Positions 1,514-64,000 of a stretch of 64,000 nucleotides of DNA are shown here, piece by piece. Position 1 is the first letter of the stretch; each line of letters starts with the position of its first letter. The position numbers were made by a program, and so were the translations under genes. Under the pieces are notes generated by a model. That model was not told where the DNA came from. It did no database searches and was given only the letters and a program-made list of their open reading frames with translations. The stretch is taken from positions 186,001-250,000 of the forward strand of contig CP137322.1 of the NCBI GenBank assembly GCA_033182465.1, read 5' to 3'. This stretch comes from Sanghuangporus weigelae. Taxonomy: Eukaryota; Basidiomycota; Agaricomycetes; Hymenochaetales; Hymenochaetaceae.

Positions 1514-4147
1514 ATGTTCGGCTTTGACATCTTAGTCCTCTTCCTCCTTCAACTCTTTCCGCTAACCACGCATGCAGCTCTGTATGAGGACCCATCCCAA
1601 TTGGCGCCAAATAAAGTTTATGACTACATTGTAGTCGGAGGTGAGACTCTTCAAAGTAGAGAATGCATACATGGGTCGGAGTTGATCTCACTTCGAGGTG
1701 GTGCCGCGGGAGGGGTGCTCTCAAATCGCCTCTCTGAGACACAAAATCTGAATATACTACTTATTGAAGCTGGATCTAGGTGCGGACTTTCATTCTCAAG
1801 AAATTTCTATTCGTTTACTTTTGAGAAATCCAGTGACTTCCAGAACACGAATATCGAGGTACCTGCGTTGGCTAGTAGGCTGCCGAACTCCCAATTCGTA
1901 CGTTTCGATCATTTTCTTCTCTCAATAAGGAAGCCGGTGACGTTTTCCAGGACTGGAACTTTACGACCGTCAACCAGGAGAGTTTAAACAATCGTTCCAT
2001 TCCTTATACGCGCGGATTTGTACTAGGAGGATCCACGTCGATAAGTGATCACTTTTCCTTAGATTATCTTATTTTGGGTCTCGCTCAGTATTCTTGCTCA
2101 GATTTTATGACATACACTCGCGGCTCTGGTGATGATTATGATCGTTGGGCGAACGTTACAGACGACGAAGGTTGGTCTTGGAATTCACTGCAGTCGTATA
2201 TTCGAAAAGTAAGCTCATGAGATTCTCAAAATGATCATTGGTTTACCTTTGAACTTCTTAGCTTGATAAAGTTATTCCACCTGTCGATGGTCATAATACG
2301 ACAGGACAATTCGACCCTTCTGTCCATGGACAATTAGGTGGATATCTCAGACTGGACTCGCATCCCAAGAGCTGACATGTACGAAACAATCAGGCCACCT
2401 TGGGATCAGTTTGCCTGGTGTTCTGCGACCCACTGATGATCGCGTCCTAAAAGCCTCTACTCAACTCTCTAGCGAGTTTCCGTTTAATCTGGATTGCAAT
2501 TCTGGAAATACGATAGGTGTCGGTAAGGAGTCTTAACGCTTTCACGTAAGCTGTCGCTGACAATGTACATACTAGGTTGGACACAATCGACTGTTAGATG
2601 TAACGTATACGTATTGTATGAATTTACTGATGACTCGATTAGATTGCAAGCGGAGAACGGGACAGCTCTGCGGTTGCCTATATTGCTCCTGCACTTTCTC
2701 GATCTAATCTCGATGTTCTCGTTAACACTCGAGTCACAAGGGTTATACAAACTGGTATGCGGCATTCCACTCCAGAATTTCGCGCGGTCGAAATTACCAC
2801 ATCTTCAAATAGTAAGTCTGCTTTTTGTTGACTACCGAAAGCATTGAACCACCGATATATTTTCTCGATGATTATAGGTACCTTACAAGTCCTGAATGCC
2901 AGAAGGGAGGTTATTCTTTCCGCTGGAGCTGTCAAATCACCTCAAATTCGTGAGTGCAGCACAAAATGTAGTCTAATATGCAAGATAGTGATGTAAATCG
3001 CTTTATGTATACATGGTACAGTCATGCTCTCTGGTATTGGTGATGCTTCGCATCTCTCTTCTCACTCAATCAAGCCGATAGTGGACTTGCCGGATGTCGG
3101 CCGCAATCTTCAGGTAAAGATGTACCTTCTCTATAAGTAAAAAGTCTTTCATGGATATTCATTCCTGTAGGATCATTCTCTCGTAACGGTATCCTGGACT
3201 GTGAACTCAACAAATACACTTGACAACTTGACTGAAGACGCGACATTTTTCCAAAGCCAGCTCGATCTATGGATCAAGAATCGTACAGGTCTTCTCGGGA
3301 GCGCGCGATCAAGTCAAATCGGCTGGGTCAGGCTACCCGATAATGCGTCCATCTTTAACACCATACCTGATCCAAGCGCCGGACTGACGTCGGCTCATTA
3401 TGAGTTCATATTTACCGTGAGTATGGCACTGCACTTTCTGAACAATCTTCCTTTTTGTCCATCTAGAATGGTTTTATCTCATTCTCGGAGCCTTTTCCTT
3501 CCGATGGAAGTCATTTCTTCACAATCTTGGTAGCTGTTGTATCGCCAACGTCACGTAAGCTTTTTTTTGTTCAAACTCGTAGTTCTGGGCTCATCTCTCA
3601 GCCATTGGTGATCCATTGGTGATTCAGGTGGCAATATATCACTGGCATCCTCGGATCCATTTCATTCTCCCGTCATAAGTCCAAATCTGCTTGGGACGAA
3701 TTTTGACATTTTCACTATGCGTGAAGGAATCAAGGCTGCGCGACATTTTGTGTCTGCTCCAGCATGGGATGGATGGATTCTCGAAGAGCACGGTGCTTTC
3801 TCTCAAGCTCATACAGACGAGGAAATCGAGCAATATTCTCGGAATACTGCGACGACGATTTTTCACGTCTCAGGGACAGTCGCCATGGGCAAGACCGGGA
3901 CAATTGGTCGAGGAAGTGGGGCCTTGAACTCCGATTTGACCGTCAAGGGAACGATTGGCCTGAGAGTTGTTGATGCTTCTGCTTTTGTGAGTCATACGCG
4001 ATACACTGGTGCTTAACTGAAAGTCATGTTCTGGAAAAGCCCTTCATAGTTGCAGCGCATACACAGGCAGCTACGTATATTTTGGCTGAACGGGCATCAG
4101 ACCTTATTAAGGATGCATTTCGCAGTAAGTCCGGGTACTTATCTTGA
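1514..4147 (+). CDS. Secreted GMC oxidoreductase, aryl-alcohol-oxidase-like (about 14 short introns)
   Basis: The protein starts with a hydrophobic signal peptide (MFGFDILVLFLLQLFPLTTHA), then KVYDYIVVGG|GAAGG, the FAD-binding dinucleotide motif, completed by removing intron 1641-1697. Spliced exons then give the GMC signature GGSTS-INFMTYTRGS, the DDYDRWA segment, WTQST, the second signature block LSAGAVKSPQI and LMLSGIGD. The C-terminal domain has HVSGTVAMGK and, past the last intron, PFIVAAHTQAATYILAERA, supplying the two active-site histidines typical of aryl-alcohol oxidase. About 590-600 residues are expected, the normal length. All junctions I tested use GT..AG and keep frame, so the gene looks functional. 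The likely role is extracellular alcohol oxidation with H2O2 production. ATG 1514 is chosen because it opens directly into the signal peptide. Stop TGA is 4145-4147. Confidence 0.9.
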
Positions 4148-25431: not shown

Positions 25432-26687
25432 ATGCTCGTAGGAAGCCTTGCGCGTATCCAGCCTTTCAAAAGCGTATATGTCGGAAGTGCATTGATTGGC
25501 CTCTTGTTCGTGAGGATTCCTTCGTGGGCTCTGCGTAACTTGCTCCCTTCATGGAGGCCGAGAAAATCGTGGACGATTGGTCGTTGTATACAGGTTAATT
25601 TAACGAGATATTTGATGGGTTTAGGAAATGCGTATGTTGTGCCTCCTCTGTCAAGTCCTGGAGATCTACCAACTAATGTACGCAACCTCGTGCATTTCGC
25701 AGAGTTGGGGGCCTCGGACATAACCCTACGGCTAAGGCGTTGGAAATAGGGAAAGGCGTGAATGGTGTCTGGATTGATGCGGTTCCCGAGCTCATCACAG
25801 GAGATGTTAAGAAATGGGCCGAGATCGCAGGTGTGGAAAGCGTTAATATACCAGGTTATTGGCAGAATAAAGCAGGCGAAGAGATCACCATGGGTGAGGC
25901 ACCGAAACCTAGCGAGAAAGTGCTACTGGCATTCCACGGTGGCGGGTATATGGGTTTGTCTGCCCACCCATCATCATCTGTGTCGGTAATCCCGCGTGAT
26001 ATCATGAAGTATACGACATCAGCCCGACGGGCGTTCTCCGTTGAGTACCGGCTCTCCGCGCCAGGCAACGTCAACCCTTTCCCTACGCAGTTGATCGATG
26101 GCCTAGCGGGATACAACTATCTGGTGCGCACAGTCGGGTTCAAGCCTGAAAATGTGATCATCGTCGGAGACTCGGCAGGTGCCAACCTTGCTCTCGCTTT
26201 GACTCGATACCTCCTTACGTATGCTGACTCACTCAATCTTGGTCTTCCTGGCGCACTTGTGCTACTCTCACCCTGGGCGGACCTTACGACGTCGCACAAC
26301 TCTCCGGGATCGTCAGTGTACGCTAACGTGCGCTCTGACTTCCTACTGCCTCCGCCTGAGAAGGAACCCGACTTCGCGTCGAAGTGTCTCGCGGGCCCAC
26401 ATGGGACTGACTTCCTCTCCAATGTGTATATCTCACCTGCATGCAAAGGGAATACGGACGTTTCCTTCAAGGGTTTCCCGCGTTCAATTATCGTCGCTGG
26501 AGGAGCAGAGACCCTCATTGACTCGATTCGAACATTGGAAGGAAGGCTGTTACGCGATTTAGGTAAAGAGAAAGTGGAAATGTACGTTGCGGAAGATGCA
26601 TTCCATGATTTCATAGGGTTCTCGTTTTTCGAGCCGGAGAGGACGGAGGCTTGCATTGCTATTGGGAAATGGATTGACACTCTTTAA
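25432..26687 (+). CDS. Alpha/beta hydrolase fold-3 esterase, paralogue 1
   Basis: Exons 25432-25631 and 25703-26687 give 394 residues. The first exon encodes a probable membrane anchor (SVYVGSALIGLLFVRIPSW) and the RPRKSW block seen in all four hydrolases here. The catalytic domain has the oxyanion motif AFHGGGYMG, nucleophile elbow VGDSAGANLA with the catalytic serine, the acid in AETLIDSI and the histidine in AEDAFHDFIG. This is the hormone-sensitive-lipase-like (HSL, fold-3) arrangement, like fungal steryl acetyl hydrolases, acting on acyl esters, probably at ER or lipid-body membranes. Exon 2 is almost identical to that of the minus-strand copy at 54867-56117 (25 of 315 residues differ by my count), whereas exon 1 is only about 77 per cent identical. 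Confidence 0.9.
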
Positions 26688-30094: not shown

Positions 30095-31401
30095 ATGCCA
30101 ATGTACAGCTCCGCACGCAAAATTCCAGAGCCTCTCCGACGTCTGTACGCATATCTTGTAGCAGCGTCCTTCTTGGCGCGTCTGCCGTGGTGGATAATTA
30201 CGAATTTGACGCCCTTTCAGAGACCGAGGAGGAGTTGGAGCTTGTCGAAGGCGTTGACTGTCAAGATCATAAGATGGGTGTTCGATGAAGTCGGAAAATT
30301 GTAAGTGACCTTTCCTTGGTATTTCGCTGCGCGTCAGGCTAGGCACGAGATTTTCTTCTAATTTATCGTTTCGCTTTGGGAATTAGCAATATGCAATATC
30401 TCACGCATCTACATTCCCATAAGCATCTTGAGAGAGGTTATGGAGGCGTCTGGGTCGACGGGGCGCCATCCGAGCTCATCACGGGCAAGGTGAAAGAATG
30501 GGCCGCCAAGGCAAACGTTCATCCCGAACGCATTCCGGGCTATTGGATCCACAAGCGCGGAGACAATATCGCCGTAGAGCAGGAACCAGATGAAAAGGAG
30601 AAAGTCGTATACTTCCTTCACGGAGGCGCATATGTCTTACTCTCCGCACACCCGAGCCAGGCGGTGTCGAATATACCCAAGGGAATTCTGAAGTTCTGCC
30701 CGAGTGTAAAGCGGAGCTTTGCGGTTGAGTATAGGTTATCGTCCATCCCTCCGGAACCGACTACGGGACAGTTCCCTTCTGCGCTACTGGATGCGATTGC
30801 GGGGTATCATTATCTCGTGAACAAGGTCGGTTATTCTCCATCGCAGATTGTCGTTGTTGGAGACTCGGCAGGTGGAAACCTCGCTCAAGCACTCGTTCGC
30901 TACTTGTCAGAACATACTGTTCCAAACTTCCCTGGCGTACCGGGTGCTCTGATCCTTCTATCGCCTTGGACGGACATGAGCGGATCGCTTCACCACGCTT
31001 CTTCCTCCCCATTCACAAATCGCAAGTCCGACTACATTTCCCCTCCTCCCTTCCCGAATACCATCGACGCTCCGCGAGCATTCATCGAGCCTTTCGGCCT
31101 CGAACTCGTCTTCCAAACGCCCTACATCTCCCCCGCATGCAAACAACTCACAGACGTCCGTTTCGACGGGTTCCCCAGAACGTTCATCGCCGCTGGTGAC
31201 GCCGAGGTCCTGGTTGATCAGATTAGGGAGTTTGCTCGACGGATAAAGAGTAGCTTGGGTCAGGACAAGGTTGTCTACTTGGAAGTGAAGGACGCTTTCC
31301 ATGACTTCTTGTGTTTGAAGTTCACGGAGCCGTGGAAGTCGGATACTCTCAGAGCTATTACGCGATTCATAGAAGAACCCGAGACGAAGTTCAAATTGTA
31401 A
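30095..31401 (+). CDS. Alpha/beta hydrolase fold-3 esterase, paralogue 2
   Basis: Exons 30095-30300 and 30387-31401 give 406 residues with a single intron at the same place as paralogues 1 and 3. The N-terminal anchor is LRRLYAYLVAASFLARLPWW, then RPRRSWSLSKAL. The catalytic domain has FLHGGAYVLLSAHPS (oxyanion), VVGDSAGGNLAQAL (nucleophile Ser), AEVLVDQIREF (acid) and KDAFHDFLCL (His). It is the same HSL/fold-3 esterase type but clearly diverged from copies 1 and 3, with PSQIVVVGDS in place of their motif flanks. The starting Met could be 30095 or the second ATG at 30101; the first is used. Likely an esterase or steryl-acetyl-hydrolase-like enzyme anchored to a membrane; substrate unknown. 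Confidence 0.88.
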
Positions 31402-47047: not shown

Positions 47048-48537
47048 CTAAAAAGCAGAGTTATGGCATTTGTAAGTGTCGGTAGACCTTTGGATATAAG
47101 CTACAGAACAAACCCTCGTCGCTCCAGAATCGGACTTGATGTCGATGTCGGCTTTGCATTCCGTCAAGTTCGGGTTGAAAGCCTGTAATACGAGAATCCG
47201 GTGTCACCGCATCAATCAGCCGTGACTAAGGGCATCTCCAGAGGCACAGCGACGCAACTAACCTTAGCGGGATTGGAATCAACCATGACAGTGACCGATG
47301 TATCGCGAGTATCAGAACCGGTCTGGCCCACATGTTCGAGGTCGAAGCTCTGCATTTCGATGGTACCGTCCATTTGTCTGCGAAATACCGATCTCGCATT
47401 CAACGAGGCAAGCATGCAATTGTAGTACACTGGGAACAGCATATATCCTGTCTCGAGGCTGTTTCTTGGCCAGTAGCCGAAATGAACTTACATTTGGATA
47501 TGCAGAAGTCAATAATCAGGTAAATGAACGTGTTTGGAAGGACCTCGGCGACGACAAGTGCCAAGATGGCCATAACACCTGTAATTAAACTTGTTCCAAT
47601 GGTCAACGCGACGAGTCGCTTGATGAGTCCTTCTGTTCTCTTAAACCCGGAACGGCACCTCCACAGAAGAATGACAATGGCAAGAGCAATGGAGATGTCT
47701 GTGATGAAGACTAAGACGTTCATTGCTCGCTCGAACTTGATTGTGGTCGAAAGCGGTCGCACATGTACCAGGTGCATGTATACGGACGCATACACCAGCT
47801 GGACGACACTGAGCAACGCGAGCGCACCTGCCAAAAGGTAATTTTGGTTGCTCACTTGGACCGAAAAATCAGGAGCAATATCCTCAGTAAACGTTTGGCG
47901 CGCTACTCACAGTTAAATGCACGCATGACATAAAAGCCATGTATCAGTGCTACTATAACAGGCGAGAATGGAGCCGAGTTGTATATATCGCTTTCGAACG
48001 AGCAGGTGTATTTAGAGCGAACAGGTCCAGGAGAGCAGGCTGACATACCTATCCAGGTTATTCAGGAAGTCCACATTTCCGAACTGCTTCACGAAGTAAA
48101 TATACAGGAACTTCAAGACCAGGACCAGATACACGGTCTCGAGAATCCACAGCAAGATAGTGCAGATTTTGAGCCACGGTTTATCGGATTGAAAATATTT
48201 CTTTAAGATCGTCAAGTTCACTGATCTCGGGGTGTTATGCAAAGGCATACTTCGATGTAGAACCACAGTTGAAGGCAGCTAATTGCCCATAAGCTGAAGC
48301 GCAGGCGTCATGCATGTTTCATTGTACTTCCAACTTTGCGACTTACGCCGTGGAGAAGCTGGATGACGAAGCAGTTAGTACCAAATCGGACCCTCGCCCA
48401 ATGAAAGGTACATACATCCCGGTAAGAAACAAACAGCCATACTGACAATAAGGGAAGGCTCAGACAACGTGCATGAAGACACGAAGTTTGAAGCTCACAG
48501 TACTATCCAAGTCGGGCTGAGCACCATCGGAAGACAT
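47048..48537 (-). CDS. DUF6534 multi-pass membrane protein, copy a
   Basis: ATG 48537 gives MSSDGAQPDLDST, then YGCLFLTG, the 12-nt microexon FSTA (48347-48358), KYFQSDKPWLKICTILLWIL, FLYIYFVKQFGNVDFLNN, IYNSAPFSPVIVALIHGFYV, NYLLAGALALLSVVQL, FERAMNVLVFITDISIA, RSGFKRTEGLIKRLVALTIG, FIYLIIDFCISKC and YYNCMLASLNARS, the standard signature order of the family. About seven transmembrane helices are predicted by eye. Function is unknown, and family names come from memory of Agaricomycete annotations. The uninterrupted CMLASLNAR exon lacks the intron found in copies b and c. The last exon (AFNPNLTECKADIDIKSDSG) is spliced on; the exact stop is uncertain (read-through stop at 47048). A TATATAG box lies about 70 bp upstream of the ATG (48605-48612). 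Confidence 0.82.
48347..48358 (-). other. Conserved 12-nt microexon, DUF6534 copy a
   Basis: CTTCTCCACGGC lies between introns ending ATCCAG and beginning GTAAGT, and codes FSTA with flanking bases. Equivalent microexons are at 50758-50769 (b), 52915-52926 (c), 57846-57857 (d) and 61565-61576 (e). Confidence 0.75.
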
Positions 48538-49595
48538 GATGGGCACGGAGATGGAAGGATCCCACTAGCTGGCCTCGTGGGTGCTCATCGCAAACCGGCA
48601 GATGCTATATAAGCATGAAGGACCGAAACTCAAATCAAGTGCGTTTAGCCTATAATTGACCTCATCACTTGTGCTCCAAGCATCAGTAGGAAGACAACAT
48701 AGGTTTGATACAACTAGTGATTGCGAAGATCCAGCACTACACAAAAGACACATCAGGCGAGTAAAAGCCACCAATGCTTCTCCCGGAAACGATCGGATAC
48801 TCTTTGTCTATTTTTGTCTAATGTTCCAAACTAACAGCCGCTCTTCTTCATTCAGTGGAGCTGCTTCAAGTTGTAGCTGCGAATAATCAAACACTATAAG
48901 TCGCCGATCACACATGGAACTGATTAGTGCCATCTTTGAACTTAGTCGAATAGCGTCTCTAAAGAGTTACTCAAGGATGAGGGATAGAGGTCCATGGGTA
49001 AGATTACTATTTATGTGGATGGGAACGATCATCGATATTTTACTGCATCAGTAAGCAGCGAGAAACTTTCCAAGGGAGTGGTCAACAGTCTGTCACATGG
49101 AAAGCAGCGAGCAAAGGTCTCATGATCGCTACTTTGATTCTAGTATGTACTATGTATGCATAGATCGTCCCGAGCTTCAAATTTGCGTGCCGAACGGATT
49201 ACCTTTCTGAACAGCGGTACCTCCTAATAATAAAAGGCCAAACTCTCAAGTCCTAATCCTCGATAGAACATTGACACTATGATGAATGCTCCGTGCAACA
49301 ATACAACCCGTCGAACCTCTGTCGACAGTATTACGTAACTCATTGCATTTCGTCGAAGCTATGAATTTAGAGCTGTGAGTTCGATTCCGCTTTGTCATTC
49401 ATAATTGTAAATCTTGATAATTCAAGACCCTCAGCGCCTCTGCCTGAATCACAGCAATGTGCCTGATCATAGTATGACATTAGTATGAGTACCACGATCA
49501 GCGATCCTAAATTATCGGCATTTGGAGATAACGTATGCTTCACAGGTTTCTTTAATAAAACAACTCTGTCGTGCATTAATGCCGGCACTTAACTC
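48538..49595. other. Intergenic between DUF6534 copies a and b
   Basis: Promoter of copy a at the left; no gene supported. Divergence from the other spacers is high. Confidence 0.5.
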
Positions 49596-50950
49596 CTAGG
49601 AGTTGACTACAATGCTGGTTGACCGCGAAACAGCTTGTACTTCCGACCCAGCTGCAGCCATGTCTTCAAGATGGAAACTGAGCATCTCAGACGTCCTGTC
49701 CATTTTCTCGCGTAGACTAGACCGGGAGTTCAACCTAGAAAATGGCCATATATTAGTCATTGAACTGATTACTACAGAAGCACTTGAGATGTACGAGGCA
49801 AGCATGCAATTATAGTACACTGTCCGTTGTAAGTTTCTGATTAATCTCGGTACCATATCGGCAAGAAGGCCTTGGTAACTCACATTTTGACATACAGAAG
49901 TCCATAAATAGGTAAACGAGCGCATGAGGCAGAACTATAGCAGAGACGAACGCTACGAATGCAACAACGCTCGTAATCAGTCCCGTTCCAATTGTAAACG
50001 CAACGAGGCGGGTGATGATTCTTTCCGTCTTCTTGAAACCAGGACGGTGTTTACATAGGAGAAAGATCAATGCTAGCGCAATGATAGTATCTGTGAAGAA
50101 GCCCATAGCATTCATGGCGATTTCGAGCTTGATAAGTGATGCGAACTCCTCGACATGGACCAGGTATAGGTAGACATATTTGGCCATCAAGAGTGCTATC
50201 GTACAAATTGCGAGTCCAGAGGTCATTAGAAGATTCCCTTTGCTCACTTCGAGAGAGAGAGAGAGAGTCTAGATTATTATCAAAGTTAAAATCATTTCAC
50301 GATCGACTTACAACTGTGTGCACGAGTAATATAAAACAATTGGACCAGTGCGCAGATAACTGGAGAGAACAAGGCTGATGTAAAAGTATCTCTGGGGGGA
50401 AGAATTCATAACGTCAGAGAATGAATTTTAAAAAATACTCACTTGCGCAAATGACCAAGGAAATGGATGTTCCCGAATTCCCTCACGAAATATACATACA
50501 AGAATCTCAGGACCAGAATAAGATACACCGTGTCGAGGATCCACAACAAAGTAGTGTATATCCTGAGCCACATTCTATCGGTCGAGAAGTATTCCTATCA
50601 AGGAATTCTTTATCTCCGCGGTAGAATCTTTGCAAGAACACCTACTTCGATATAATAACAGAACTGTACACAGCTTATTTCCCATAAACTATGAGTGGGT
50701 AGAATAACCAGATCCAGTCAGGTGCGATTCAGTTCCGAAGAATTAACAGAGACTTACGCAGTAGAGAAACTGTAGACAGAGTGTCTTTATTCACCTTTAC
50801 GTATGCGAATGATGGAGAATCCGTGCGTACACTGCGGTTAGGAATAAGCAACCATACTAAAGGCAGATGATCAGCCTACAGTCACGCAAGAACAGAAAGT
50901 TCAAATCGTACAGTTCCGTCCAATATGGTCTGAGATTCACCGGAGAGCAT
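49596..50950 (-). CDS. DUF6534 multi-pass membrane protein, copy b (extra intron)
   Basis: Starts MLSGESQTILDGT; then TVYGCLFLT-type exon, microexon FSTA (50758-50769), EYFSTDRMWLRIYTTLLWIL, FLYVYFVREFGNIHFLGH, FTSALFSPVICALVQLFYIT, NLLMTSGLAICTIALL, LEIAMNAMGFFTDTIIALAL, RPGFKKTERIITRLVAFTIG and MDFCMSKC. The next exon should read YYNCMLASLNSRSSL, but here a 60-nt GT..AG sequence (49735-49794, with branch-like TGACTAAT) splits it between CMLAS and LNSRSSL; copies a, d and e lack it. The 60 nt are open in frame, so retention would add 20 residues. The tail ends early, VVNS, without the ECR-V-DID tail exon. TATAAAA at 51008-51014 lies about 58 bp before the ATG. Confidence 0.82.
49735..49794 (-). 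other. Extra in-frame intron of DUF6534 copy b
   Basis: GTACATCTCA..CATTTTCTAG, 60 nt, divisible by three and stop-free, lies inside the conserved CMLAS-LN block. A GACTAAT branch-point-like sequence sits about 25 nt before the acceptor. Confidence 0.7.
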
Positions 50951-51713
50951 GCTCTTAGTAAGGGGCCAGAAAGAGAGGCACTGAGACGGCGTATTTTACG
51001 CTCGAGATTTTATAAGCAGAATCAAACGCCGTAAACTTGTCGAGAAGTTGGATGCCGTGTGAAGCCTCCAGATATTTCATTGTCTAGCACCATCAGTTTC
51101 GACGCGTGATACAGGTCGGAGAAAAGGAAGCCCGGAAATGTGCCTCCAATCGCAATAAAGAGAGATGCACGAGTCACCGGACCGATCGGGCAAGGTGCGG
51201 GAGATAGGCACTTGATGTCCTTGTAAAGCCCGGGACTCGGATATATATTCGAAGGCTAATCCAAAAAATTTTGCCCCGTGTCCGATGCAAGAAGCGTCAG
51301 TTTCATCTTTTTCTTAACGTCGAACTTGCTTCAAATGTCGGTCATTTCCGTTCAGCAATACGAAACTACACATCTTTAGTGATATTGCGGAAAGAATAAA
51401 ATTATCATCTCCGACATAATCAATCATGTGGGCTTGGGGAGGACTGCGCCGCACCTTTTTACCTAAGATAATCATGCCCGGAAATCATACGGCCGAAGAC
51501 ATAACTGCGTGACTAGATGAGTGATAAAAGGAAGTTGAACTATCCTCGCCATACTAGCAAGACACAGAAAGTATCGCATCAGTTAGGTCTTTTTTTTTTT
51601 TAGAAAAGAGAATAAATATAATCTACCTTCTCTGACGACCTTGGATTTATGTTGGCGCCAACACCACCATTTATTGCATCGTGATCATAACTCTTGGTGT
51701 GAACGCCAACAAG
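50951..51713. other. Intergenic between DUF6534 copies b and c
   Basis: A T-run at about 51588-51600 and a 12-bp palindrome GTTGGCGCCAAC (around 51652-51663). No supported gene; the c-terminal tail of copy c may extend into this stretch. Confidence 0.45.
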
Positions 51714-53101
51714 TCAGCAAGGGTGCATGATGGATTTTTGAACTGATAGTGACCTTACCTCCTGTAAGCCCGGCTTGATGGCGGTGTTCCCCGGTCTTGC
51801 CCTTTGTGAAGTGCTAGCAAGCTCGTCCAGACGAATATTTAGTCCGCCGACAGGGCCACTCATTCGTTCACGGAGATCAGTTCTTGCATTCAACCTTGAC
51901 CAACGAGTAAGCTATGCTGAAATATCTTGATGAAGAGATGGACTGACGATGCAAGCATGCAATTGAAATACACTGTAGTTCATCACCGGTCAGACAGCTG
52001 TGTGTATAGTCACAACCAACTGAGGCTTAACTCACGTGTAGCCATGCAATAATCAATCATCAAATAAGCGAATGAATGGGGAATAACCTCTGCTGTGACA
52101 AAGGCTATGATAGCCATGATACTCGTAATCAAGCCTGTTCCAACAGTATATGCAACGAGTCGTTTGATTATCCCCTCGGTTTTCTCAAATCCCGATCGCA
52201 GATTCCATAGGAGATAAAATAAAATAACAGCGATAGCAGTGTCAGTGAAGAGGACGATAATGTTCATTGCACGCTCAAAGTTGACAATAGTCGCCAGCTG
52301 CTCGAGATGGTTAAAGTGCCGTGTATTTTGGATGTACACGATCGTAGCCACGAATTGAGCCACTACGCAAATGGCGAGTCCGCTTGTCAAGATATAGCTC
52401 TTGCTTACTTGAACAGTGTCAGAATCAAAAATCTCCTTTTAGCTAACACTCACGATGCCAAGCCCGACTCACGAAAAGAGACTGGACCATCGTCGCGATA
52501 ATTGGCGAGAATGGAGATGAAACATAGATATATCTGCGTATACAGGTGTGAAACAGCTTCTCAGCTATAGAAGCATCTTCGATGTAAAAGCACCTACTTT
52601 GGAAGTCTATCCAAGAAACCAATATTCCCAAATTCTCGGACGAAATAGATGTACACAATCCTCAGGATCAGAATGAGATATACTGTGTCAAGAATCCACA
52701 GCAAGACGGTATATATCTTGAGCCACAATTTGTCGGCTCGGAAGTGCTTCTACAGAAAGTGTGTAAGGAAACTATCTCCTTTTCAGGTCCATTACGCACT
52801 TCTAAGTAGGATAATAGCTGCAAGCAGCCGATGGACCACAAACTAGGGTTGCGAGGAGTAGATTAGACTAAACACGAGGCATCTGGTCTAGCGCTCTAGC
52901 TTACACAGCGGAGAAACTGAACGGACGACAAAGCAGAGTCATCTCGATTGATCCAAAGCTCAACGTCAAAGAACTACGTACATCGCGGTAAGAAACAGGC
53001 AGCCATACTGATGAGAGAGCTCTGGTCACTATTCGGAGCGATGACAGAGGTTGCAGACTCACTGTACTGTCCAATTCTGGACTGCCACTGGCGGACGACA
53101 T
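51714..53101 (-). CDS. DUF6534 multi-pass membrane protein, copy c (extra intron)
   Basis: MSSASGSPELDST at 53101, YGCLFLTAM, microexon FSA (52915-52926), LLSYLEKHFRADKLWLKI, TVLLWILDTVYLILI, IYVSSPFSPIIATMVQSLF, TSGLAICVVAQFVATIVYI, FERAMNIIVLFTDTAIAVI, RSGFEKTEGIIKRLVAYTVG and MIDYCMAT follow the family order. LYFNCMLAS is separated from LNARTDLRER by a 53-nt intron (51895-51947) at the same codon position as in copy b but of different sequence. The tail (GGLNIRLDELAS, TAIKPGLQE) is shorter than in a and e; a donor GTAAGG follows, and 51714 is only the read-through stop. TATA-like TTTATAA at about 53158-53166 lies near the ATG. Confidence 0.75.
51895..51947 (-). other. Extra intron of DUF6534 copy c at the copy-b position
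   Basis: GTCAGTCCAT..GGTCAAG, 53 nt, inserted between CMLAS and LNAR. Same phase and position as in copy b, with no visible sequence similarity, as in old introns that have since diverged. Confidence 0.65.
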
Positions 53102-54866
53102 GTTGGGGAATCGAAGATAAAAATGATGCAAAAACTACCGTGAATGCCTTGCAAGCCCTTATAAATATCGGCGCGGTCCTAAAGTGTCCTGTTCGAAGAC
53201 TGTGTTGGTCCGACAATGCCGGGATCACATCAGTAACAAAGTCTAAGAAAAGGTGAAACTCTTATCATGATACGCATCACGTCTGTCACGAAAAGCACCC
53301 CCGATAACAAACCCAGAAGAATATATCGAAAGGTCTTGGAGACTAATTCATCCGTGCTGGGAAGAGTATGCTATGCCAACCTGACAGTGGTATCATGGAC
53401 AAGTATCGGCATCGAGATGATTCTACTACACCTTGCAGAGAGAAAAATGACGCTTATTGATGGATGATGGATGGTGTACACAAAGAACAATTTCGCGTGC
53501 CTCAGAAGTCTCATTCACACAGCATATTCGGCTTTTTCACAAGGTGTCCAGGCACTGGAACGGCGTTGTCAGCACCAAGCGAGATGAGTGATGGGTTTCT
53601 ACACGATCCAGGGCATTTCAAACACATGAACTCTAGCTGTCAAGGAACAAAGTACGCTCATTCCTTTACACCCTGCACTTCCCACGCGCACGTGGAATAT
53701 GACTGACTGTGGAAACTGTGATATAAGACAAAAAGATCCAATAAGAAGCCCAATTCATTTGCGTGCGTAAAAGAAAAACATACAAAGCAGAAAGGAGAAT
53801 TCGCAAAGTCCTCGCCACGCGCCGAATTTATGATCGAGTCGATTCACCTATGCCCGCCCGCATTAATTCGAAAATCCACGGCCCATCGATCTCTACTGCA
53901 AATGTAGCTTCCAAAATATCTGCTTGCTAATAGGCAGACATCCGCTAAGTCGGTAAGAAGGTCTAACAATATCTAATCCATTGAACTCTAGGTCAGATTC
54001 GACATTTGATTTCAAAGTCATACAATACACTCACCGCTCTCTAGCCGCGGAAAACAGCGAGATTTGTCGCTTCAGATACACCGATCCTAGTCTGCATCAA
54101 AATCTGTAGAAACCCAACATGAGTGGTGCAATACACCAGCGACGTTATTTGAACACGATGAACGATGTTTTTTCTTTTCTTCTTGTTTGCTTACATAATT
54201 TCAGAGGCTTGGCCTTCGACCCCGCCAAGCGGCACTTGCTACGTATACATGTACATGCAAAATTCGTTCGCGGGAAATCGCCTCTCAAGCTGCGTAAATC
54301 CTCTATCACAGTAATAGATCACGATATTACCGTGTTGGTTAATCTCGTACTGAACGCATCAAGAAAGAAAGATATGAGCTAATTCGATTCATGAATACAT
54401 TTTACATGAAAGCTTCCTCGGTGAGAGAAACTTGAATGAAGGAGGAAGCGTTTGCTCGCAGTTGAGACTTGTCGGAGAGTCGAAAATATGTCTATCATGT
54501 GCATACTGACATGTCCCTCTTTCGATACACCTGAGAGGATACCTCGACGAGAAACCATGCTTGCAGACAAATGATTGCTCATAACCTGACCAAGTTGTCG
54601 TGTATCAGTAAAGTCCGCTTCAATTCAAATGACAAGGTGATGTTGAAAATCTAGCAAACAAGCGAACGGAATCAGATCGTGCATTTTCGCCTTATAGCTT
54701 ACAAACAGTCCCAGACTATCACAAATTTTCAACCGATGCTGATGATATTTATCTTTACCATCAGAACACGAGGGTGTGCGATTGCAAAACCATAAATCGG
54801 GACTCATTATAAGTCGAAATAAGCCCGGAATGACAAGAACATGAAGAACAAAGCATACAGAATAAC
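53102..54866. other. Intergenic region of about 1.8 kb
   Basis: Separates DUF6534 copy c from hydrolase 3. Several short frames, none with a recognisable domain. No repeat identified by eye. Confidence 0.4.
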
Positions 54867-56117
54867 TTAGAGAGAGTCGATCCATTTCCCAATAGCAATA
54901 CAAGCCTCCGTCCTTTCCGGCTCGAAAAACGAGAACCCTATGAAATCATGGAATGCATCTTCCGCAACGTACGTTTCCACTTTCTCTTTATCTAAATCGC
55001 GTAACAGCCTTCCTTCCAATGTTCGAATAGAGTCAATAAGGGTCTCTGCACCTCCAACGACAATAATGGAGCGCGGGAAATCCTTGAAGGAAACGTCCGT
55101 CTTCTCTTTGCATGCAGGTGAGATATACACATTGGAGAGGAAGTCAGTCCCATGTGGGCCTGCGAGACACTTCGACGTGAAGCCGGGTTCCTTCTCAGGC
55201 GGAGGCAACAGGAAGTCAGAGCGTGCGTTAGTGTACACTGACGCTCCCGGTGAGTTGTGCGACGTCGTAAGGTCGGCCCAAGGAGAGAGCAACACAAGTC
55301 CGCCGGGGAGACCGAGGTTCAGCGAGTCGGTATACCTAAGGAGGTATCGAGTCAAAGCGAGAGCGAGATTTGCGCCTGCCGAGTCTCCGATAACGATCAC
55401 ATCTCCAGGCTTGAACCCGACTGTGCGCACCAAATAGATATATCCCGCCAGGCCATCGATCAACTGCGTAGGAAAAGGGTTGACGTTGCCTGGCGCGGTG
55501 AGCCGGTATTCAACGGAGAAAGCCCGTCGGGCTGATGTCGTATACTTCGTGATATCACGCGGGATTACCGACACAGATGATGATGGGTGAGCAGACAAAC
55601 CCATATACGCGCCGCCATGGAATGCCAGTAGCACCTTCTCGCCAGGTTTCGGTGCCTCACCCATGGTGATCTCTTCGCCTGCTTTATTCTGCCAATAACC
55701 TGGTATATTAACGCTTTCCACACCTGCGATCTCAGCCCATTTCTTAACATCTCCTGTGATGAGCTCGGGAACCGCATCAATCCAGACACCGTTCACGCCT
55801 TTCCCTGTTTCCAACGCTTTAGCCGTAGGGTTATGTCCGAGGCCCCCAACTCTACAAAACGCATCAGTTCGCGCGCGTCAGATGATGAGTATCCAGAACC
55901 TGGATAAAAGAAAGGCGACGTACGCCTTAAACAAACCTCCCATATATCTGGTCAAATTAACCCGTATGCAACGACCAATCGACCACGATTTCCTCGGCCT
56001 CCATGCGGGGAGCAAATTACTGAGAGTCCAAAAAGGAATCCTCACGAAGAGAAGGCCAATTACTGCGCTTCCAACATAGATACCCTTGAAAGGCTGGACG
56101 CGTACGACGTTTGCCAT
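54867..56117 (-). CDS. Alpha/beta hydrolase fold-3 esterase, paralogue 3
   Basis: Exons 55924-56117 and 54867-55851 give 392 residues. Anchor and leader: MANVVRVQPFKGIYVGSAVI then GLLFVRIPFW and RPRKSWSIGR. Catalytic motifs match paralogue 1: AFHGGAYMG, VIGDSAGANLA, AETLIDSI, AEDAFHDFIG. Note HGGA instead of HGGG. The second exon is almost the same as that of paralogue 1, which stands 28 kb away in opposite orientation; identity falls off at the first exon, in the intron and immediately after the stop. It is inserted between DUF6534 copies c and d on their strand. Function: acyl-ester or sterol-ester hydrolysis at membranes, substrate unknown. Confidence 0.9.
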
Positions 56118-56690
56118 AGGCTTGCTGGTCCGCTCGTCGAAGTTGTCGTTAGAGCAACAACGGGAGATGAGCGCGTCGTCGTCGTGTGATCCGTTCTTCC
56201 GTAGTGCGTTACATGACCACGCCGAGTGAATACTCACTCAAACGAACGAATGAGAATATTCACGGCTTCAATAAATACATTTCGGGCCATGGAATAAAAT
56301 TTGTTCCACCTATGTCCTGAACGATTACATAAGTATCTCGTGGGCGATTATATCAAGTATAGGTGTAGAGGAGAAAAGAATGAACATGAGATAAACTAGA
56401 CATTTTGCTCGTCTCATTGCTGGAATATGAAAACCACGTTCAATATGAATTCGAGTAGGTAACATCTTCTCTTGGGGAAAGGAACTCAAACTGAGGGATA
56501 ACTGCTTGTCTTCGTGGGTGTGTCAACGACAGCCACGGCCCTGTGCTCGTACTGGTTCAAGATAGGCAAAAGATCAGTTGTTATTTCAACACTCGCTTTC
56601 CGGGAGATTGCAGACGTACAATTTCCGCTTCGGATAGTGAAGAAGTTTCAATATCGAGTCGACTTTGAATCGTTCTTGGACTCCCGATCT
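56118..56690. other. Intergenic between hydrolase 3 and DUF6534 copy d
   Basis: Promoter of hydrolase 3 and 3' flank of copy d. Some of the upstream 40-60 bp (TCTAACGACAACTT) is shared with the 5' flank of paralogue 1. No gene seen. Confidence 0.5.
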
Positions 56691-58047
56691 TCAGGATTTA
56701 TCTTTTTTAACCCCAAGATTTGTCTCAGCGTCATGAACGATGCTGACCTTATGAGAGCTAGCAGCAGTGATAGCTGGAGTTGTAGTGACAAGCATGTCAC
56801 TAGCAGCGGGTACGAGGTCATCGAGGCGCAAGCTTTGGGTCATGATAGTGCGGTTCATATCTTCGCGGAGACTCGATCTTGCATTCAACGATGCAAGTAC
56901 GCAGTTGTAATACACTAGGCACCAAATATTCCGTGCATCAATAAGGGTTACTCAGGAGCATCGATTTGGTCTGCTTACATTTGGAAATGCAAAAGTCCAT
57001 TAGCAGATAGACGAATGACCGCGGCATCGTCTCCGCAGCAACAAAGGCCACAATGGACATTATGCCCGCTATCAATCCTGATCCGACAGTGAATGCAACG
57101 AGGATATTGATAACCCCATCTGTTCTCTTGAACCCGACGCGTAGTTTCCATAAAAAGTAGGCAATTGACAACGCGAGCACCGTGCCCGTAAAAAGAACTA
57201 TAATGTTCATGGCTCGCTCGAGCTTGAGAATTGACGAAAGCGGCTTCACATGCGCCAGGTGCAGGTAGATGGACGATACTATAAGTTGAACCAACGAGCA
57301 CAGGGCAAGAGCACCAGTCAAGAAATGGTTTCTATCGCTCACTAAAAGAGACGCGTCAGTACAGAGACGACCTGCGATAGGTATCTATTGCTCACGATTG
57401 AAGACACGCATGATATAGAAGGAGTGCACCAGGCCTACAATGACAGGAGAGAATGGGGCCGAGCTATATATGTCTCTGTACGTACGAGAAACCATAAACG
57501 GTAAGTAAGAGTCCAACAAAGTAGAGTTGTACGCACCTGCCCAAATTATTGAGGTTGTCCACGTTTCCGAAGTCCTTGACGAAATAGATATAAAGGAACT
57601 TGAGAACAAGAATGAGATACACCGTGTCAAGGATCCACAGTAGGACAGCGAATATCTTGAGCCACGACTTGTCGGTCCGAAAATATGTCTGCAAAATTTC
57701 TTAGTCTTGTTGGCATATAACTCATTTTATGGGATTTAACCTCGAGATAGAACCAAAGCTGGATACAGCTGACTGCCCATAGCCTAACGAGGGACTCCCG
57801 ATAAGTTTTCAGGTAAGAGATGCGATATGGACTGCAATAACTGACGCAGTCGAAAATCTAGGTAAATAGGCGCCCAAAATCAGATGGTGTCCTACGCAGT
57901 TCAGACGTAAGGGAAATACACGACGTACATGACGGTGAGGAACAAGCATCCGTACTGAACGATCAATTAGTTGAGCGATACGATGACAGTAGCCATAATG
58001 AGTCATACAGTACTATTTAGTTCTGATTGTCCACCAGTCGAAGACAT
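56691..58047 (-). CDS. DUF6534 multi-pass membrane protein, copy d
   Basis: MSSTGGQSELNST at 58047, then YGCLFLTVM, microexon FSTA (57846-57857), LWAVSCIQLWFYLE, TYFRTDKSWLKIFAVLLWIL, FLYIYFVKDFGNVDNLNNLG, IYSSAPFSPVIVGLVHSFYI, NHFLTGALALCSLVQLIV, LERAMNIIVLFTGTVLALSI, RVGFKRTDGVINILVAFTVG, FVYLLMDFCISKC and YYNCVLASLNARSSLRED. CVLASLNAR is uninterrupted, as in copies a and e. After ITAASSHK a GTCAGC donor may start a further intron; the read-through stop is 56691-56693. Membrane function unknown. No clear TATA box was seen, unlike copies a, b, c and e. Confidence 0.82.
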
Positions 58048-60254
58048 GGCGGATGCGACATGAACGAGAAAGATGTGAATGAGTTTCGCAAGTAACTTTG
58101 TCCGGCATGTTAATAAGAGAACGATGCATAAGATGGGAATTCCAAAACTTATATGGTGTGTACCTACCAAGAACGTTTCCAAATGATACTGATGGCAACA
58201 ATTGCAAAGGAAGACCCTATACCATCGTCTTTAAAGCATTCGAGAAGAAGCAAAAGATACTTGCTAAAGTGCACCGCGAAGACTAATATCCTCTAGTACA
58301 TGGATGGTGATTTTATCCAAGAAACACATGGAATCCAAGCGAATTGCAGGGCGCAGAGAGGGCAATGTAAGAACTTGTGATCGCCGGAAAGTGCGGAATT
58401 TCGTCAGAGGCTCTGGCCGAATCTAATACATTGGGCTGGGGTTATTGTATGGCTCGGCCATCACCCCCCACCATGCTCGTGTCCATGGCCATGGAGTCAA
58501 TACGATGTTGATGGATGGAATTGAGAATATCTGTGGGAATAGGTGACAAACTCAGTTACGTGAGTCTCGTCTGACTCATTATCTTTAGGCACGTGCATTT
58601 CCCTCAACTTCATCCAATAACTTAGAGAATGGCTGGCGCGGGCGTGGTTATATGCATGCCGAAACGCGATGAAGAACGAAGGTATGACTCAGACAATCTC
58701 GTCTATTACGCCCTCTCGTCTATTACAAGACTCGTTCGGCCTTCTTGAAGTCTACACGGACATTGCGGTGTTTGAGGCGTAAGTCCAACCTTTTCGGGGT
58801 ACTACCTCAAGCTCCGAAATACTTGAGGTTGTGTCCAAGGCGTCCTTTTGGTGAGAAGAAAGTCAAGCTCATTAGTCTGTTCGTCTATTATCTAAATCGA
58901 GAATTTTGGTCCGCGAAGTCTCTCTCTCTCTCTCCAACTACAGTCGGGTTTTAGAGTTGAGAAGCTCGCGTCCTTGTTATCGAAGCGCCATTTTGACAAC
59001 TTTTGAAGATATAGCTTGAATGCTAATTTCGAATAGAGAAGAGAAATTATTGACGATGATTTTCCGCGGAAAATTTTATGACCGTGTGTCTACGCACGGC
59101 TCCACCCATCACCATCGACCAACCATACACAAGCTAACAGTTGAGAAAATCAATGTGGGCGCCCTCTCGATTGCAACCGGTCAAAGATAGTGGAGCAACT
59201 TCCTCGATGATTGTCGGCGCTCTGTCCTTTGATCTCCCAAAGCTGCGAGAACTAAAGCAATGGAAGCCGCTTAGATCTCCTATACACATGGATGGGCGAC
59301 AGTTCGAGTGATGACTGGTTGCAACGCATCCCTGGGAATGGCCGATGCAGAGGGAAGACAAGCGAATTATTCAGTAGTAATGTTACAACCGCCATCTTCA
59401 CTCATCACAACTTTACCAACGCCAGACGTGCTATCTGAAATTGTCATGACCTTGAGAAGATACCGATTTAAATAAGGGGTGAGTACTACGGAACTCTCAA
59501 GGGCGAGTGTGGCATGCAATGCATTATCCTTGCAAGCGAAGCCTACCACCGACCTCAATCGAGAATTTTATGACTTTGTCGAACGTCAACTGAAAGGTAC
59601 AGAAGAGGATCTGATGCCATCTTCCTGATGATTGGCGCATCGTCTGATAAGCTTCCGTCGTTTCTCTGTCTGGGAGAAAATCAGGGAACCTGAGCGCGAC
59701 CCTGATTATTTTGCCGACGTCCCTATCCCCTTGCCCTCGCAAACACCTTGTTTAGAAATCGATGTTTTTCCCCCCTCAGTTTTTAAGGTTCCTGAGCGGC
59801 TCCTCGGACTGGTCAGTAAGAAGAGAGGACAGTGGACAGTAGTCCGAGCTTCCTTAGGTACGAACAAAAGTACGATGATTTTGTACTTATAATAATCCAC
59901 TTTATCCACACAAAAATCCATTGAATAACGTTATTGGATTACCTATTACATTCGATGCACAGCGTAAGAAGAAAAGGGGACATCCTGGATCCGGTACACA
60001 AGCACAACAGAACAAAACAGAACACAATGAATGATAACAACAGGCCGACATACAAGAAGTCCGTGCTCCGCCCGCTGTGCAAAATAACCAATCTCGCTTT
60101 AGTCATAGAACATTATGACACTATGATACCCCAAAGCGTTTCTGTTCTCATGAATTATACAGCGGAACTAAGCGTGTTGGTTGCTGTCTTGAAATCAGAT
60201 ACGGAGCCGTCGGCGTCGTACTTTGCAAAAGACAAAATAAAGTCAATAAGCAGC
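58048..60254. other. Intergenic region of about 2.2 kb
   Basis: Contains a (CT)n tract at about 58919-58934 and the short repeat TCGTCTATTA several times between 58695 and 58895. Short frames only, none supported. Confidence 0.45.
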
Positions 60255-61749
60255 TCATAGCCTGGAAGAAAGAAACATATATTCGTACCCTCTTTCCCCC
60301 TGATTCGGGGTCGACATCGATGTCCACTCGGCATTCGATAGCTCTCGCATTATATGCCTACAAGCGAATCCACAGTCGGCCAACTCCGCAAACTTCAAAT
60401 TAGGGAGTTTAAGTGCGCACCTTGTGTGAGTCGGAAGTGATAGTGGCAGATCCCGCAGTAGCGCGCGTCCGGGAGCCCGAACTGGCGCTGGTCGAAGCAA
60501 GGTCATCCAGATGGAAGCTCATGCCTCCCGCTGTGCTATACTGGTTTCCACGAAGTGCAGAGCGGGCGTTCAACGATGCAAGCATACAGTTGTAGTACAC
60601 TGTAAAAAAAAGGAAATCATGTCAGCGGCCTGCTTCCGACAGCTGGCAAAACAAAGACCAAATAACTTACGCTTCGCCATGCAGAAGTCAATCAACAAGT
60701 AAATGAACGAGTTCGGGAGGGCCTCGGCCGCAACGAACGCCACGATGGCCATAATAGATGTAATCAGCCCCGTTCCAATCGTGAAGGCGACAAGGCGGTT
60801 GATGATGCTCTCCGTCTTCTTGAAGCCAGAACGACGGTTCCACAGGAGGTAGATGAGGACAAGCGCAATCGCCGTGTCGGTGATCAGGACGATGACGTTC
60901 ATCGCGCGCTCATACCTCACGATCGTTACAAGCTGCTCGAGGTGCTGGAATGAACGAGTCTTTGAGATATAAACGACCGTTACGATCAACTGCGCTGCTA
61001 CAAGGAACGCAAGGCCTCCTGTGATGAAGTAGTTGCTGTTGCTCACTGTGAAGTAGTTCAATCAGTGGCGTTCAATATACCGAAATGAACGCTCTGGGCT
61101 AGACTTACGGTTCCATGCACGCATGACGAATAACGCCTGTACCATGGCCGCAATAATCGGCGAGAACGGAGCAGAGCTGTATATGTCTCTGAAAAACGAC
61201 GATTCGTCAGCTTTGGAACTCCTCCAAGGCATTTAGCGACACAATACTTACTGTGGCAGGTTATCCAAGAAAGCGATATTCCCGAATTCTCGAACGAAGT
61301 AGATGTACAGGAATTTGAAGACCAGGATGAGATACACGGTGTCGAGGACCCACAACAAGATGGTGTATACTTTGAGCCACAATTTGTCCGTGTGCAAGTA
61401 TTTCTGTAAAATTTGCGAATTTGATAAACATTTGGTGTTTATCGAGAATCAAAATTTCTTACTTCGATGTAGAACCATAGTTGGAGACAACTGACTGCCC
61501 ATAAACTGTACGAATCCAAGTCAGCATTCCTATTCAACGTGAAGATTTAGCGAGTAGAACCTACGCTGTAGAAAAGCTAAATTCGCGAATAACGATAGAA
61601 AGTCAGTTAATCTGACCATCGATCAGTTAAACAACGATCAACTGCGCACATCACGGTGAGGAACAAGCATCCATACTGAATAGAAGGTTAGCATTCCGTC
61701 GGTAGCGAACCGAACGAAGAGAACATACTGTACTATCCAATTCAGACAT
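60255..61749 (-). CDS. DUF6534 multi-pass membrane protein, copy e
   Basis: MSELDST at 61749, YGCLFLTVM, microexon coding FST (61565-61576), KYLHTDKLWLKVYTILLWVL-type exon, FLYIYFVREFGNIAFLDN, IYSSAPFSPIIAAMVQALFV, NYFITGGLAFLVAAQLIV, YERAMNVIVLITDTAIALVL, RSGFKKTESIINRLVAFTIG, FIYLLIDFCMAKR and YYNCMLASLNARSALRGN. The last exon reads AYNARAIECRVDIDVDPES, the tail motif shared with copy a. All junctions tested are GT..AG and in frame, with a late stop at 60255-60257. TATAAAG at 61862-61868 lies about 113 bp before the ATG. Best-preserved copy of the array; function unknown. Confidence 0.85.
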
Positions 61750-63728: not shown

Positions 63729-64000
63729 ATGTCCAAGGATCCCAACTATCGTCCGCGAGTCGCTCCTTCCCTCCAGCGAGCCTACGCCTGGTTCTGGCTC
63801 GGTACAATCCTCGTCCGTATACCCTACTGGGTCGTAACAAACTTAACGCCCGCACAACGACCCCGCAAGTCATGGCCACTTAAAAAGGCTGTGTTCCTGA
63901 GGTTCGTTCGGGCATGGCTCAAGGGATATGAGAAAGCGTGGGTATTTTCTGCCCCGTTAGGTAATTATCTTTACTAATTTTTTGCTTCCGTCTCTTTCCT
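63729..64000 (+). CDS. Alpha/beta hydrolase fold-3 esterase, paralogue 4, N-terminus (cut by window edge)
   Basis: MSKDPNYRPRVAPSLQRAYA is followed by a hydrophobic anchor (WFWLGTILVRIPYWVVTNL) and TPAQRPRKSWPLKKAVFLRF. This corresponds exactly to exon 1 of paralogue 2 (ARLPWWIITNLTPFQRPRRS) and, more distantly, of paralogues 1 and 3. A donor GTATTT follows GYEKAW at about 63941, at the same place as the intron of the other three, so the exon probably ends there and the catalytic exon lies outside the window. The call rests on this N-terminal similarity only. Confidence 0.7.

Follow-up and report, generated by a model that had tools for sequence, protein, structure and literature searches.

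Putative ectopic gene conversion between two inverted hydrolase paralogues of Sanghuangporus weigelae, covering most of exon 2

Described conversion systems and the P1/P3 pair

Gene conversion between loci has been described in yeast and rodents, where, in the available part of a review, patches of high identity lie within otherwise diverged paralogues (PMC3924818). The same text gives yeast conversion tracts of about 200-500 bases and places conversion mainly above 80% identity, sometimes lower (PMC3924818), and a tract size of a few hundred bases emerges from the accessible portions of two reviews (PMC3924818, PMC3966223). In Caenorhabditis, adjacent inverted pairs are included among the converted ones, and a C. 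elegans survey cited in the available section of the second review reports converted pairs on the same chromosome, with a frequency falling over 1-8 kb, and suggests a preference for the same orientation (PMC3966223). Likewise, according to the available excerpt of a study of GOT1p1/GOT1p2 in Tigriopus californicus, regions of high divergence remain among converted ones; several populations were covered, and the islands are tied to selection for new functions (PMC3728101).

The two paralogues described here, P1 and P3, resemble these systems in the high-identity patch, in its size of a few hundred bases, in the inverted orientation shared with convertible Caenorhabditis copies and in the divergent regions left among similar ones. 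In contrast to the reviewed systems, as far as the available texts describe them, the tract is restricted to one exon, the pair is 28 kb apart and a single genome is involved, and where selection is invoked for the GOT1p1/GOT1p2 islands, the P1/P3 island has a nonsynonymous/synonymous ratio (0.101) below that of exon 1 or the tracts. Given the pattern of the C. elegans survey, as cited in the part of the review at hand, the inverted orientation and the distance count against conversion (PMC3966223). Both conversion between inverted paralogues and islands of divergence are already known, and P1/P3 is a new example. No pair like it was found for basidiomycete or mushroom paralogues among open-licence papers judged by their titles or the opening of their abstracts, by which we do not claim its absence from print. 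Conversion limited to one exon, with an unconverted island, bears on how duplicated fungal enzymes may share a catalytic part while retaining separate promoters and N-termini, and trees or dates built on exon 2 of this pair would mislead.

The window, that is, the whole stretch of 64,000 nucleotides that was analysed, corresponds to positions 186001-250000 of contig 5 in a genome of 33.9 Mb and 13 contigs. P1 (25432-26687, plus strand) and P3 (54867-56117, minus strand) are mutually inverted Abhydrolase_3 paralogues, the arms of the repeat being separated by 28,177 bases; their coordinates, opposite orientation and two-exon structure had been given correctly in the initial annotation. In P1, exon 1 (25432-25631; 66 codons and 2 bases), of old divergence from P3 with a synonymous rate of 0.43, is followed by an intron of 71 bases (25632-25702) and by exon 2 (25703-26687). 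P3 comprises exon 1 (56117-55924; 64 codons and 2 bases), an intron of 72 bases (55923-55852) and exon 2 (55851-54867), and both introns are short, of the GT...AG type and identical in phase.

The encoded proteins, of 394 and 392 residues, respectively, score 87.9 and 83.9 bits against PF07859 (Abhydrolase_3; curated cut-off 25) and also pass the curated cut-off of Say1_Mug180 (PF10340); they differ from both families in exon 1, which lies outside the Pfam matches. Among 18 matched chains of solved structures the esterases 3v9a and 3fak rank at the top, and an alignment of P3 with 3v9a brings the GDSAG motif and the histidine into register. The catalytic motifs, namely the serine of GDSAG, the acid and the histidine in AFHDF, are present in both translations, and the acid is presumably the Glu of AETL, by analogy with EstE5-like esterases. 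One residue change falls in the HGG motif, which we take to be the oxyanion-hole motif: in the frames at 25677-26687 and 54867-55877, within the first part of exon 2 (tract A, below), P1 reads HGGG and P3 HGGA, with A in the paralogue P2 and G in P4 and P5.

Synonymous divergence of exon 1 and exon 2

When the two loci were aligned with MAFFT, 700 bases of flank included on each side, P1 and P3 shared 71% identity over the last 100 bases of the 5' flank, 76% in exon 1, 61% in the intron and 93% in exon 2, followed by 66% over the first 100 bases of the 3' flank, 53% over the next 200 and 43% over the next 400; random pieces of the window give mean alignment identities of 45-49%. The intron, described in the initial annotation as barely alignable, indeed falls among the values obtained for 40 random 71-mers taken from the window (mean 49%, sd 6, max 63). 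Identity had also been said to stop at the stop codon, which proved incorrect, as 200 bases of 3' flank are 67% identical and 40 random pieces reach 56% at most (mean 45%, sd 4). The homology is therefore old and continuous through both ends, and exon 2 between them looks younger. The flanks of the two loci are still divergent from each other, although a crossover inversion may have taken place. The earlier counts required small changes: 13 differences, and not 14, over the 345 bases that open exon 2; 25 differing residues, as stated, in 328 exon-2 codons and not 315; and 18 of 64 aligned exon-1 residues in place of 14 of 60.

At the protein level P3 and P1 are 92% identical over exon 2 and 74% identical over exon 1 (61 residues), the next best paralogues reaching 48% and 41%, respectively. 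A search of the genome with P1 DNA matched P1 and P3 only and thus revealed no further close copy. These figures bear on a history in which a rather recent duplication gave rise to P1 and P3, and an older relative supplied one of the two with its promoter, exon 1 and its intron. Although the divergent exon 1 and 5' flank would fit, the exon 1 of P1 remains nearest to that of P3, and both the old 3' flank and the island in exon 2 (below) would go unexplained, which makes this replacement highly improbable. A reverse-transcribed piece of exon 2 recombined into the other copy would agree with high identity that is limited to one exon and begins at the acceptor, but both copies retain the intron, the 3' flank shows no homogenisation immediately past the stop codon and no island would be predicted, and we find such a cDNA route hardly credible.

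The synonymous rate also jumps between the exons, and protein constraint alone is therefore no explanation for the jump in identity. Under an MG94 codon model in which nonsynonymous rates were fitted separately, the P1-P3 synonymous rate falls from 0.427 in exon 1 to 0.116 in exon 2 (LR 15.9, p=6.7e-5), with p=9.5e-5 after removal of the first ten codons and p=0.02 when exon-1 codons 26-64 alone are used. Equal synonymous divergence in both exons, which the initial annotation had named as an outcome that would speak against conversion, was accordingly not observed. Nei-Gojobori estimates (0.74 in exon 1, 0.21 in exon 2) and a permutation of codons between the exons (p=1.4e-4) give the same picture, and when exon 1 was simulated at the rate of exon 2, 8.3 (sd 2.7) synonymous changes were expected and 20.9 observed (p=1.5e-4). 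Fourfold sites alone, few in exon 1, differ at 6 of 19 and at 25 of 168, respectively (p=0.096). When codons were compared within amino acids, exon 1 differed from all of exon 2 (p=0.0066) and from its two similar tracts, A and B, taken together (p=0.0016).

A Sawyer/GENECONV-style scan over the five family members P1-P5, run with a script of our own and not with the GENECONV program that had been proposed earlier, detected at mismatch weight 1 a P1-P3 fragment spanning nearly all of exon 2 (p=0.0002 for all polymorphic sites, 0.014 for third positions). For all sites and third positions, respectively, weights 2 and 3 both gave p=0.002 and about 0.07, and the longest-run versions 0.005 and 0.051, so that over four mismatch weights the fragment is significant for all sites (p=0.0002-0.0054), with p=0.014-0.074 for third positions; within exon 2 alone third positions gave p=0.20-0.31. 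BIC favours a division into exon 1, A, the island and B (309.4) over two segments (311.8) or one (316.1), and permutations of the segmentation ranged over p=0.015-0.085 for the whole gene and 0.047-0.14 within exon 2. The four-segment model has a permutation p of 0.045, a weak value that we guess arises because short segments were permitted; the fixed-width scans and simulations described below are sharper.

The island within exon 2 and the control paralogues

The plateau of high identity announced for exon 2 was confirmed, except that it does not cover the whole exon. Identity is 95.7% over bases 1-446, drops to 81.7% at bases 447-577, and rises to 91.2% at 578-691 and 94.2% at 692-985. Tract A (P1 25703-26148, plus; P3 55851-55406, minus) matches at 427 of 446 bases and would be converted. 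The island of about 131 bases (P1 26149-26279, plus; P3 55405-55275, minus), which contains the GDSAG serine motif, matches at 107 of 131, retains the old divergence and appears unconverted. Tract B, probably converted as well, ends at the stop codon (P1 26280-26687, plus; P3 55274-54867, minus) and is less uniform than tract A, its two parts being 91.2% and then 94.2% identical.

The differences in the island are mostly synonymous. For a split whose borders were picked after inspection of the data, synonymous rates are 0.423 in codons 218-257 (exon-2 bases 458-577), 0.414 in exon 1 and 0.077 in the remainder of exon 2. Permuted scans, which search for the best place along the sequence, gave p=0.0003, 0.0033, 0.0002 and 0.0014 for synonymous changes in widths of 20, 30, 40 and 50 codons, and p=0.0019, 0.014, 0.00025 and 0.0012 for all changes; simulations retaining P1's own codons gave p=0.0003 at a width of 20 codons and p=0.0007 at 40. 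Since the island is rich in leucine and other residues with many codons, codons were also compared within amino acids, and the island then differed from A and B (p=0.0007) and not from exon 1 (p=0.53). At conserved residues, codons differ between P1 and P3 at 14 of 42 positions in exon 1, 13 of 140 in tract A, 14 of 34 in the island and 14 of 122 in tract B. Silent sites are more alike in a bounded tract than on either side of it, a pattern by which conversion is recognised. The nonsynonymous/synonymous ratio is lower in the island than in exon 1 (0.273) or the remainder of exon 2 (0.282), and selection for a different island protein therefore shows no sign; the island looks simply unconverted.

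The same pattern would be expected if no conversion had followed a single duplication and codon choice, or constraint on the RNA or DNA sequence, had acted on most of exon 2, leaving exon 1 and the island free. In fact, the ends of the plateau coincide with exon boundaries, as such constraint predicts. Control paralogues were drawn from a family set confined to P1 to P5 among the matches listed (30 and 13), in which P5 exon 1 was taken from open frames and P6, being near-identical to P5 (3701 of 3708 bases), was left out; the more distant P2 has its exon 2 in an open frame at 30343-31401 (plus), with 48% protein identity to exon 2 of P1. At conserved residues of tracts A and B, P1 and P3 use the same codon at frequencies of 0.91 and 0.89, whereas the nine other pairs share 0.33-0.58, which shows that codons there are free to change. 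An excess of changes in the island was not significant in P2-P4 (p=0.79), P2-P5 (0.34), P1-P4 (0.68) or P1-P2 (0.80); the fifth pair, P4-P5, leans the same way as P1-P3 (stratified test, p=0.08). Its codon-model rates follow the same order, with 6.05 (at the bound) for exon 1, 1.37 for tract A, 4.18 for the island and 1.70 for tract B (p=0.08), but within amino acids its exon 1 is not significantly faster (p=0.24). In P2-P4 the order is another, with the island lowest (p=0.09), and in P2-P5 the regions are alike (p=0.51), both pairs being near saturation, and the fits for P1-P2 and P3-P2 are at the bound, that is, saturated and uninformative. Because the control pairs are near saturation, strong codon constraint on A and B is better excluded than a mild regional difference. 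GC3 varies little among the regions (0.47-0.60), which also speaks against constraint, and we give this explanation little credence. Constraint alone, replacement of the 5' part and cDNA-mediated conversion were all rejected as the main explanation.

Putative mechanism and genomic neighbourhood

Ectopic conversion of most of exon 2, well after the duplication, is the reading we favour as very probable, short of proof. As proposed in the initial annotation it is supported by the silent-site jump and the fragment scan, with the amendment that the exon is a mosaic holding an old island. We hypothesize that an old duplication of one Abhydrolase_3 gene gave the inverted copies P1 and P3, and that homologous recombination repair between them copied most of exon 2 one way long after duplication. 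The copying would have been limited to exon 2, plausibly since the divergence of intron, exon 1 and flanks was by then too great; at 61-76% identity, intron and exon 1 would tend to halt exchange. A patch of about 131 bases would have been left with its older divergence, either because two tracts of about 446 and 408 bases were copied or because a single heteroduplex underwent patchy repair, and one patchy event and two events fit equally, as the rates of A and B are no different (p=0.45 within amino acids). The data show the regional difference in silent divergence and the island; conversion as its cause, the number of events and the homology limit are what we infer from them. Both tract lengths agree with the yeast sizes, and the synonymous rate in the tracts would be about one fifth of the old divergence (about 0.077/0.42), as expected for conversion well after duplication. 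At the 25 residues of exon 2 that differ, three other paralogues side with P1 in 10 cases, with P3 in 4 and with neither in 11, and the split of 10 to 4 may owe as much to rate as to the direction of copying.

P5 and P6, which share one orientation on contig 8 at a distance of 108 kb, lie within a duplicated stretch of at least about 26 kb (two long blocks) whose two copies, with four neighbouring loci, occupy 2038001-2064000 and 2146201-2172200. Of 26 one-kb bins, the nine from 2045001 to 2053001, where the hydrolase and its DUF6534 neighbour are located, contain 0-6 mismatches each, against 6-88 in the other 17; this core could be a second homogenised patch, or it could stem from an uneven mixture of duplications. 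Selection repeatedly favouring homogenisation of the catalytic exon across the hydrolase family, in P5-P6 as in P1-P3, while exon 1 and promoter diverge, is a broader reading that we regard as rather doubtful.

Say1-type and DUF6534 families are both found among the genes of the window, which together with the short GT...AG introns mark it as fungal and would indicate a mushroom-forming basidiomycete. P3 is located within a tandem DUF6534 array that covers 47485-61405, with five repeat copies and five Pfam matches in the window, and continues up to position 264 kb of contig 5. P4 and P5/P6 likewise have DUF6534 genes nearby, at distances up to about 4 kb, and the two families may travel together. 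Exon 1 of P4 is at 63795-63911, and its exon-2 match begins about 58 bases past the window end. On contig 2 (2721850-2722642) a hydrolase relative is present in three pieces, two with internal stop codons, and is possibly a decayed copy. No tRNA genes were found in the 64-kb window. A direct repeat pair with 82% identity over 300 bases is located at 1-300 and 3657-3956.
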